Source: Polynucleobacter sp. AM-26B4
GTDB lineage: Bacteria > Pseudomonadota > Gammaproteobacteria > Burkholderiales > Burkholderiaceae
DNA: 64,000 nt
Direction: 5' to 3'
NCBI RefSeq assembly: GCF_018882285.1
Contig: NZ_JACVOT010000001.1
Span: 1,061,916 to 1,125,915, forward strand
A model generated the notes under the pieces. That model did not search any database and was not told the origin of the DNA. It saw only the letters and a list, made by a program, of their open reading frames with translations. The translations under genes and the position numbers were made by a program. Of this stretch, positions 58,001 to 60,808 are shown one piece after another (the stretch's first letter is position 1; every line of letters begins with the position of its first letter).

Positions 58001-59122
58001 TCACTTCTTGCGACGCTTTTTAACGCCTTCTGCAAGGATCTCTAGTACATCCAAAGAGTCATCCCAACCAATACAAGCATCAGTAATGCTGGTGGCGTAT
58101 TTGAGCTCTTGAGGATTGTCTTTGCCTGGAGTGAATTTTTGAGCTCCAGCAAACAGATGACTTTCCACCATCACGCCGAATACTTGTTTTGAGCCCTTGG
58201 CCAATTGACCAGCAATGTCTTTGGCCACTTCAATCTGACGCTCGTGCTGTTTGCTTGAGTTGGCATGAGAGCAGTCAACCATCAATGAAGCTGGTAACTT
58301 CGCTGCTTCAAGTTCGCTACAAGCTTTGGCAACGCTTTCTTCATCGTAGTTCGTGGTTTTGCCGCCACGAAGAATGACGTGGCAATCGCCATTGCCTTTT
58401 GTTTCAACAATCGCCACCTGACCGTTTTTGTGAACTGATAAGAAGTGGTGTGGACGACTCGCTGATTGAATCGCATCGGTAGCAATTTTGATGTTGCCAT
58501 CAGTACCATTCTTAAAGCCAATCGGTGCTGAGATACCAGAAGCAAGTTCACGGTGAATTTGGCTTTCTGTGGTTCTTGCTCCAATCGCGCCCCAAGAAAT
58601 AAGGTCGCCGATGTATTGTGGAGAAATCACATCCAAGAATTCACTGCCAGCAGGCATGCCCATGCGATTGATTTCAATCAATAGATGACGAGCAATTCTC
58701 AAGCCCTCATCAATACGGTAGCTTTCATCAAGATACGGATCATTGATCAAGCCTTTCCAACCGACTGTTGTGCGAGGCTTTTCAAAATAAACGCGCATCA
58801 CGATTTCTAATTCGCCTTCATATTTTTTACGTTGTTCTAATAATTTATGAGCATAAGCAATCGCAGCGCTTGGATCATGAATAGAACATGGGCCAATGAT
58901 CACCAAAAGACGGTCATCTTTGCCATGCATGATGTCGCGAATCTTCTTTCTGGTTTTGCTGATCAATTTCTCAACAGATGTTCCCTGAATAGGAAAGAAG
59001 CGAATGAGATGCTCTGGCGGTGGTAGCACCGTGATATTTTGAATGCGGGCATCATCAGTCTCTGACGTCTTATCAATACTGGCATACCAGCTGTCTCTTG
59101 TACTGAGAGATTTATCAACCAT
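58001..59122 (-). CDS. aroG: 3-deoxy-7-phosphoheptulonate (DAHP) synthase, class I
   Basis: 373 residues from the ATG at 59122, chosen because AAAGGAG lies 8 nt upstream; the longer frame from 59152 has no ribosome site. It condenses phosphoenolpyruvate and erythrose-4-phosphate, the first shikimate-pathway step. VIIGPCSIHDP, MRVYFEKPRTTVGWKGLINDP, GARTTESQIHRELASG and MVDCSHANSSK carry substrate and metal residues. Which amino acid inhibits it cannot be told securely. Upstream lies an aromatic-rich leader peptide and a terminator, so expression is probably attenuated. Neighbours on the same strand are yhdP, the nitrilase gene and tldD. Confidence 0.97.
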   Translation of the reverse strand: MVDKSLSTRDSWYASIDKTSETDDARIQNITVLPPPEHLIRFFPIQGTSVEKLISKTRKKIRDIMHGKDDRLLVIIGPCSIHDPSAAIAYAHKLLEQRKKYEGELEIVMRVYFEKPRTTVGWKGLINDPYLDESYRIDEGLRIARHLLIEINRMGMPAGSEFLDVISPQYIGDLISWGAIGARTTESQIHRELASGISAPIGFKNGTDGNIKIATDAIQSASRPHHFLSVHKNGQVAIVETKGNGDCHVILRGGKTTNYDEESVAKACSELEAAKLPASLMVDCSHANSSKQHERQIEVAKDIAGQLAKGSKQVFGVMVESHLFAGAQKFTPGKDNPQELKYATSITDACIGWDDSLDVLEILAEGVKKRRKK

Positions 59123-59165
59123 TTCATTAACTCCTTTTTCTATTACCGTCATTCTTAAATCTGTA

Positions 59166-59194
59166 AAAAAAAACCGCCGTTAGTGTCGGCGGTT
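59166..59194 (-). terminator. Attenuator terminator upstream of aroG
   Basis: On the minus strand AACCGCCG (59194-59187), a 7-nt loop, CGGCGGTT (59179-59172) and a run of ten T form a strong intrinsic terminator, ending about 44 nt before the aroG ATG. Its 5' arm can pair instead with CGGCGGT in the leader ORF (59243-59237), which is identical to its own 3' arm. That gives mutually exclusive terminator and antiterminator structures. It would also end any read-through from tldD. Confidence 0.88.
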
Positions 59195-59212
59195 ATTTTG
59201 AGTGCTGGAAAT

Positions 59213-59290
59213 TTATGCTTGAATTTCTGCCTCTCGACCGCCGTGGGCTGAGAACCAAAAGTAAAAGAAATAAAATTTATTTGCAGACAT
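59213..59290 (-). CDS. Aromatic-rich leader peptide of aroG (attenuation control)
   Basis: A 25-codon frame ATG-to-TAA starting MSANKFYFFYFWFSAHGG and ending in EIQA. Residues 6-13 are eight consecutive aromatics: five Phe, two Tyr and one Trp. Codons 16-19 (His-Gly-Gly-Arg) contain CGGCGGT, complementary to the 5' arm of the downstream terminator. Ribosome stalling on the aromatic codons would leave this segment free to form an antiterminator. No Shine-Dalgarno is present. A TGCTACATT extended -10-like element ends 6 nt before the ATG, so the transcript may start at the ATG. The design parallels pheL and trpL of enteric bacteria; the peptide itself is unlikely to have another role. Confidence 0.85.
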   Translation of the reverse strand: MSANKFYFFYFWFSAHGGREAEIQA

Positions 59291-59326
59291 GGGGTTAATG
59301 TAGCACAGTTTTATTGACTTTAGTGA

Positions 59327-60808
59327 TTAAGCCGTTCCGCCGACTGTCATATTGTCAATCCTCAGAGTGGGCTGGCCAACACCAACTGGCACGCTTTGGC
59401 CCTCTTTGCCACAAACGCCAATGCCGCTATCCAAGTCCATGTCATTGCCAATCATGCTGATGTCTTTAAGCGACTCAGGACCGTTACCAATGATGGTGGC
59501 TCCTTTGACCGGATATAAGATTTTTCCGTTTTCAACCCAATAGGCTTCAGACGCAGAAAACACAAACTTACCACTGGTGATATCTACTTGTCCGCCACCA
59601 AAATTGGCGGCATACAGACCTTTTTTGATACTGGCGATGATTTCTTGTGGATCTTCTTTGCCACCCAGCATATAAGTGTTGGTCATGCGTGGCATTGGGA
59701 GAGATGCATAGCTTTCACGTCTGGCATTGCCGGTCGTTGGCATTTTCATGAGACGTGCATTGAGACTGTCTTGGATGTAGCCCTTTAAAACACCGTCTTC
59801 AATCAAGGTGGTGCATTGTGTGGGAGTGCCTTCATCATCAACAGATAAAGAGCCACGTCGACCTGGAATGGTTCCATCATCGACGACCGTGACACCCTTG
59901 GCAGCGACTCGTTGACCAATCTTGCCTGAGAACGCTGAAGAACCTTTGCGGTTGAAGTCACCTTCAAGGCCGTGGCCAATCGCTTCATGCAGCAACACGC
60001 CTGGCCAGCCGGGACCTAAAACAACGGTCATCGGGCCTGCAGGGGCAGGTCGTGATTCAAGGTTGACCAAAGCTGAGCGAACCGCTTCGTCGATCCAATG
60101 ATCAATCTTATCTTTGACAAAAAAGTGATAGTCAAAACGACCGCCGCCGCCTGATGAACCAACTTCGCGACGACCATTTTGTTCTGCAATCACTGTGATT
60201 GAAATGCGCACCAGTGGGCGAATATCAGCTGCAAGAACACCGTTTGCGCGAGCCACCAACACCACATCAAATTCACCAGCAAGGCCTGCCATCACTTGAA
60301 CAATGCGAGGATCTTTGGCTTTGGCTTTGCGTTCAATGTCTTCAAGAATAGCAATTTTTGCTTTTGCATCAAGACTGTCCAATGGGTTGAATGACTGATA
60401 CAGGGCATGGGTAGCCGGTGTTTTCCACTTGGGGCTGATGTAGGTGCTCTTTTGTTGAGCGCCGATCACGCGTGTTGCTTCAGCAGCATTTCTTAATGCC
60501 AAAGCACTGATCTCGTCGGAGTAAGCGAATGCTGTTTTGTCATGACTGACTGCGCGAACGCCAACGCCTTGATCAATGCTAAAGCTACCTGATTTAACAA
60601 TACCTTCCTCAAGACTCCAAGATTCATTGTGAGTTCTTTGAAAATACAAGTCAGCATCATCTAATTGATGGGTGTGCATGTGCGCAAGAGTCTTCTGAAG
60701 ATCTTGTTCAGAAATGCCTGCTGGCGCCAAAAGAATTTCTTTTGCAATATTTAAAGCATCAGCTCGACTGAGATGAAGGGGGTTTTCTAGTGCAAGAGTT
60801 GAATTCAT
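59327..60808 (-). CDS. tldD: TldD, metalloprotease subunit
   Basis: 493 residues. With TldE (PmbA) it forms a zinc protease that degrades unfolded peptides and matures microcin-type peptides. The HExxxH motif is in [19 protein letters not shown], with the C-terminal [17 protein letters not shown] region. No tldE is in the window. 8 nt downstream of the nitrilase gene. The stop is 37 nt before the aroG leader peptide. Confidence 0.96.

Follow-up and report, generated by a model that had tools for sequence, protein, structure and literature searches.

A predicted tri-aromatic transcription attenuator ahead of the DAHP synthase gene aroG in Polynucleobacter and other Burkholderiales

The tldD–aroG gap in Polynucleobacter

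The window analyzed here is a 64,000-nucleotide stretch of the genome of Polynucleobacter sp. AM-26B4. Within it, tldD (59327–60808) lies upstream of aroG on the same strand, and the gap between the two genes holds a short leader ORF. The product of aroG is a type I DAHP synthase, which catalyses entry into the shikimate pathway and is a main target for engineering aromatic compounds. Textbook control of this step combines the TyrR and TrpR repressors with feedback inhibition. Only two PF00793 matches are found in the genome, aroG and a weaker match of 291 amino acids, which we take to be KdsA, and type II DAHP synthase is absent. The aroG product is the only DAHP synthase of this genome. The features of the locus, in the order in which they are transcribed, are as follows:

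59297..59305, minus strand: extended −10 promoter element, TGCTACATT, six nucleotides before the leader ATG
59213..59290, minus strand: leader ORF of 25 codons, MSANKFYFFYFWFSAHGGREAEIQA, with no Shine–Dalgarno sequence; read directly, with frame and aromatic run kept in relatives
59252..59275, minus strand: aromatic codon run FYFFYFWF; control codons F, Y, F and W lie 14–25 nt before GGCGG
59246..59254, minus strand: region 1, TTCTCAGCC, the 5′ arm of the 1:2 (protector) hairpin, overlapping the end of the aromatic run
59231..59243, minus strand: region 2, CGGCGGTCGAGAG, which can partner with region 1 or region 3
59187..59202, minus strand: region 3, CTC (59202–59200) and ACCGCCG (59193–59187), the 5′ arm of the terminator or the 3′ side of the antiterminator
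59165..59179, minus strand: region 4, CGGCGG, the 3′ arm of the terminator, then nine T (59173–59165)
58001..59152, minus strand: aroG, type I DAHP synthase (PF00793 match), the putatively regulated gene and sole DAHP synthase

The leader ORF reads ATG TCT GCA AAT AAA TTT TAT TTC TTT TAC TTT TGG TTC TCA GCC CAC GGC GGT CGA GAG GCA GAA ATT CAA GCA TAA (59290–59213, minus strand). The first-pass annotation of this DNA described 25 codons with eight consecutive aromatic codons covering Phe, Tyr and Trp, and a direct reading of the sequence agrees, giving five F, two Y and one W. In all six frames of the window this is the longest aromatic run, the runner-up having five residues. A terminator scan likewise recovered the intrinsic terminator that had been placed after the ORF (59193–59165; AACCGCCG-acactaa-CGGCGGTT and a T run), with the correction that the T run has nine residues and not ten. 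The CGGCGGT within the leader ORF (59243–59237) is indeed identical to the 3′ arm of the terminator and can capture the 5′ arm, as had been proposed. Region 2 can pair with region 1 through GAGA with TCTC, and with region 3 through CGGCGGT with ACCGCCG together with GAG with CTC.

The leader region folds better than its dinucleotide shuffles (z −2.2), and with no ribosome present the 1:2 hairpin plus terminator is the best structure (−26.5 kcal/mol). Masking nucleotides 1–46 of the leader ORF, with region 4 still unmade, gives a two-part antiterminator of regions 2 and 3 (−19.2 kcal/mol); with a ribosome at the stop codon the terminator alone forms. Once region 4 has been made, the terminator with an inner hairpin is slightly better than the antiterminator (−20.6 versus −19.2 kcal/mol), so the switch must be kinetic, as is usual for attenuators.

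The start of aroG itself is likely the ATG at 59122, behind AAAGGAG (59137–59131). Both this Shine–Dalgarno sequence and the equivalent Met of relatives point to that codon, and the listed start at 59152 is therefore probably ten codons too early. No similar leader was found at trpE or pheA of the same genome, both of which sit tightly behind other genes. One weak covariance-model match elsewhere in this genome (L309) was inspected and is an ordinary terminator with no aromatic ORF.

Distribution across the Burkholderiales

AroG was searched in 120 genomes of the family and 61 of the genus, and aromatic runs were present in every AroG-linked relative that was read. A covariance model (R1) was built from 15 Burkholderiaceae leaders without any AroG sequence and was used to search 399 Burkholderiales genomes. 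Its strong matches fell ahead of AroG in family after family, in about 80 genomes of the Burkholderiales. At E ≤ 1e-10 a broader model (R2) gave 101 matches, which fall in 100 of the 399 genomes and in 14 families. AroG is found at E ≤ 1e-60 in 294 of the 399, and the resulting share of about a third of AroG-bearing genomes with the element is a lower bound because of the filters applied. The element is widespread in the order and not universal.

A pattern search of named genomes, which used only TTTTGGTT and the GGCGG terminator and was blind to AroG, returned at least 119 stretches; among the matches listed, a leader ORF precedes AroG in 93. Genera represented among these listed matches include Comamonas, Variovorax, Acidovorax, Hydrogenophaga, Ramlibacter, Rhodoferax, Polaromonas, Limnohabitans, Polynucleobacter and others. 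In two Polynucleobacter records the peptide is nearly that of the window, with an AroG 93% identical. At the corresponding position, Burkholderia- and Paraburkholderia-type genomes have MSAKFYFYFFWHLKPLADREG or variants close to it, nearly identical among themselves. The Burkholderia leader peptide had no match in a plasmid collection.

The check proposed at the outset, conservation of the aromatic run and of the competing pairing in relatives, thus reaches far beyond the genera then named, to 14 families at E ≤ 1e-10 and to two families outside the order. These two (f63 and f68; loci L281, L283, L284 and L285) belong to the same class and carry the attenuator ahead of AroG, for example with MNAARASFYFWYYFPKPLAEEGLRSP. 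The weak matches of the class-wide R2 search are mostly terminators, and of the loci opened, true elements occur only in f63 and f68. A class member from family f92 (L308) has a different Phe/Tyr-rich leader, CFFYFSFFSPALGG, with a terminator-like hairpin, CCCCCAGC/GTCTGGGGG, ahead of a DAHP synthase of 35% identity. This is possibly an independent attenuator.

The genus itself shows both change and loss. Near relatives have the leader of the window, deeper members have MYTNSFYFFYFFISDLAVER or similar, and most sampled members have no leader (L004–L013, L044–L057 and L059–L060). The tldD–aroG gap of L004 is only about 30 nt long, and it appears that the main clade of the genus has lost the attenuator completely by deletion. 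Across the wider set, tldD precedes the element in only 23 of 75 loci, and leader and AroG stay together all the same.

In another genus of the same family, one with large genomes (g3), two members (L014 and L015) encode a second AroG, 74–75% identical to that of the window and in a locus with no leader, in addition to an ordinary AroG. For G002, a leader stands before the ordinary copy. The second copy suggests paralogy or transfer of AroG.

Selection on the RNA and the register of the aromatic codons

Conservation in the leader follows the RNA more closely than the peptide. TCTC, GGCGG and GAGAG recur throughout the Burkholderiaceae set in reading-frame phases that differ between subgroups, and the downstream half of the peptide varies (AHGGREAEIQA, KPLADREG, DLAVER); outside the Burkholderiaceae the leader peptide is almost completely changed. 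The retention of these motifs despite a shifted frame argues for selection on the RNA and not on the peptide. The GGCGG, CCGCC and GGCGG elements are kept and can pair as antiterminator or as terminator.

In alignment A3, 99.6% of cells in the terminator helix are paired, with 16 double changes (14 of them at one pair), and 91.4% are paired in the antiterminator core, with 9 double changes; these absolute levels are inflated, since the loci were found by models or patterns that hold the same elements. Permutation of partners among families is less exposed to this effect. Because the GGCGG core is almost invariant, the case for its pairing rests on its fit and on its flanks, not on covariation of its own. 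In region 2, the base just 5′ of GGCGG is matched by the one that follows CCGCC in region 3, as T–A in some families and as C–G in others, and pairing of these flanks is 0.81 with the own partner versus 0.64 ± 0.05 under family permutation (p = 0.0001). The inner antiterminator helix, which is GAG:CTC in the window and GGGA:TCCC, GAAT:ATTC or TCGG:CCGA elsewhere, is also stronger with its own partner (p = 0.0004). The 1:2 hairpin is energetically favorable, averaging −7.5 kcal/mol, and does not single out the own partner in the cross-family permutation (p = 0.45); the set used for this test and the inner-helix test includes a few f8 loci whose region 2 was placed too late by 3 nt, with GGCGGTGG taken as GGTGG, and this makes both tests weaker. 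The negative control, region 1 against region 3, gave p = 0.85.

The aromatic codons keep a fixed register to these elements. Across 75 loci the aromatic share is 48% at 33–35 nt before GGCGG, 85–93% at 18–29 nt and 0–1% from 8 nt onward. What is kept across families is a set of aromatic codons 12–35 nt before the GGCGG element, with AroG downstream. A ribosome paused in the aromatic run would have a footprint that covers region 1 and leaves GGCGG free. The control codons are thus placed as attenuation demands, where a stalled ribosome would mask region 1 and free region 2.

The residues within this control window vary. Phe is found in 74 of 75, Tyr in 53 and Trp in 30; the sets are F only in 14 loci, F+Y in 30, F+W in 7 and all three in 23. 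All three residues occur in the species of the window, in most loci of f49 (Comamonadaceae-type) and in part of f3, f23 and f12, and f13 leaders have only F. The Trp codon has a preferred place, 15–17 nt before GGCGG (17 of 75 loci), and is lost in two deep members of the genus, L042 and L043 (FYFFYFI and FYFFYFFI), which reads as a natural loss of one putatively sensed amino acid. This variation indicates that the putatively sensed set differs by lineage.

An anti-Shine–Dalgarno energy of −6 or better is found for 1% of leader ATGs versus 72% of aroG starts at the same loci, where for aroG the best was taken from several candidates. An extended −10 element lies 4–12 nt before the leader ATG in 42 of 88 loci (0.7 in shuffles) and precedes it in 84 of 93 named loci among the matches listed. 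The motif, TGnTAnnnT, ends 6–8 nt before the ATG in about half the families and in most loci of six groups (the clade of the window, f4, f23, f39, f43 and f49). Loci of the Burkholderia type, f3 and f8 instead have a TATAAA- or TATAGT-like box about 40 nt upstream. Without a Shine–Dalgarno sequence and with an extended −10 next to the ATG, the leader ORF is probably translated leaderless. In the species of the window, transcription probably starts at or next to the leader ATG.

A predicted ribosome-mediated switch and its relation to known attenuators

We are highly confident that aroG is under a classical ribosome-mediated transcription attenuator, a reading put forward in the first-pass annotation and now strongly supported by the conserved anatomy, the codon register and the covarying flanks of the competing helices. 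In the predicted sequence of events, transcription would start at the leader ATG or close to it, and a ribosome would initiate on the leaderless 5′ end. A shortage of charged Phe, Tyr or Trp tRNA would cause it to pause in the aromatic run, covering region 1 (TTCTC) and not region 2. Region 2 (CGGCGGT...GAG) would then be free to pair with region 3 (CTC...ACCGCCG), no terminator would form, and aroG would be transcribed. With all three ample, the ribosome would reach the stop codon and cover region 2, or the 1:2 hairpin would form after release. Regions 3 and 4 would then make the terminator and turn aroG off.

Judged from this anatomy, aroG may respond to all three tRNAs at once. With F, Y and W codons in one control window, the switch would act as an OR-gate, answering to a lack of any one of the common pathway's end products. 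The fullest form of this proposal is a single RNA switch with a leaderless leader ORF and a three-tRNA OR-gate on pathway entry, which would be the ancestral control of AroG in the Burkholderiales, retuned by gain and loss of Trp and Tyr codons and sometimes lost entirely. Our belief and doubt in this full form are evenly balanced.

A plausible alternative, though less likely than not, is that the attenuator in practice senses one amino acid, most likely Phe, with the Tyr and Trp codons as passengers. Phe is the commonest and the only nearly universal residue of the control windows, and both the F-only leaders of f13 and the absence of Trp from L042 and L043 fit such a sensor. In Corynebacterium glutamicum the AroR run is Phe-Tyr-Phe, yet Tyr availability is described as having no effect (PMC11802643). 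Against a single sensor stand the many loci in which F, Y and W share the control window, the species of the window among them, and the recurrence of Trp, the rarest amino acid, at one preferred distance from GGCGG.

Control by a TyrR-type repressor, with the leader secondary, is very unlikely; TyrR and TrpR do control DAHP synthases in E. coli (PMC11802643), but a repressor leaves the attenuator element unexplained. It is highly improbable that the leader acts as a TnaC-like nascent-peptide arrest sensor, in which the ribosome is halted by the peptide acting jointly with a free aromatic metabolite. The position before an aromatic gene and a short, conserved peptide, nearly identical among Burkholderia- and Paraburkholderia-type genomes, would suit this, but between families the peptide is conserved only as aromatic and the frame of its downstream part also shifts. 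The chance that the terminator does no more than end the tldD transcript, with the leader ORF an accident, is almost negligible: in the window tldD does precede the element on that strand, but the aromatic run, register and covariation are unexpected of a plain terminator, and synteny refutes the idea, with 52 of 75 loci keeping leader and terminator where tldD is not upstream.

The attenuator reading would place RNA-based, tRNA-charging control at the entry of aromatic biosynthesis across a large order that includes the Burkholderia-type genomes, Comamonas, Variovorax, Polynucleobacter and others. It also points to a small gene, as yet unannotated, upstream of aroG in many genomes. Leaders that differ in their aromatic codons form a natural series for studying the integration of several amino acids by one attenuator, and the attenuator would offer a place to relieve regulation in production strains.

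Several known systems share parts of this design. The pheL (pheA) and trpL (trp operon) leaders of enteric bacteria each read one amino acid and control a terminal branch. They share with the aroG leader the use of leader codons, alternative 2:3 and 3:4 helices, for which the aroG leader has a candidate 1:2 hairpin as well, and an intrinsic terminator; the target of the aroG leader, by contrast, is the shared first step, and its codons for F, Y and W lie together within a single control window. The ilvGMEDA and thr attenuators of E. coli resemble it in reading several amino acids of one pathway through one leader, with branched-chain or Thr/Ile codons in place of aromatic ones. In an Rfam search no family reaches its cut-off (Leu_leader scores 21.9 bits against 50), and Phe_leader and Trp_leader are absent from the results.

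Leaders have also been described ahead of DAHP synthase genes. The uORFC-13-1 motif of Acholeplasma is a candidate attenuator uORF ahead of aroF with at least one Phe codon (PMC8632094). It is similar in its position before a DAHP synthase gene, but it is confined to Acholeplasma, has an RBS and has no F/Y/W run described. Closer is AroR, which lies ahead of aroF in C. glutamicum, encodes a Phe-Tyr-Phe leader peptide and is reported to respond to Phe and not to Tyr (Neshat et al. 2014 as cited in PMC11802643; PMC4046766). On the published description, through which the comparison is made, AroR likewise has aromatic residues in succession, upstream of an operon for DAHP synthase, and ribosome stalling that raises transcription; it differs in belonging to an actinobacterium and in having no Trp. 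No report of a wide phylogenetic family of AroR like that seen here, and no betaproteobacterial aroG attenuator, was found in the literature searched.

For the predicted leaderless start, the parallel is trpL (rnTrpL) of Sinorhizobium meliloti, whose transcript begins with the leader ATG and gives a leaderless leader peptide (PMC7298713). The leader of the window fits that type in having a promoter element directly ahead of the ATG and no Shine–Dalgarno sequence, both read from sequence signals; the S. meliloti leader differs in that it responds to Trp only, is alphaproteobacterial and controls trpE(G). The principle of attenuation is thus already known from pheL and trpL, as is a DAHP synthase leader from C. 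glutamicum. What appears to be new here, to the extent of the literature search, is an order-wide family with a tri-aromatic control window, a two-part covarying antiterminator and a predicted leaderless start.
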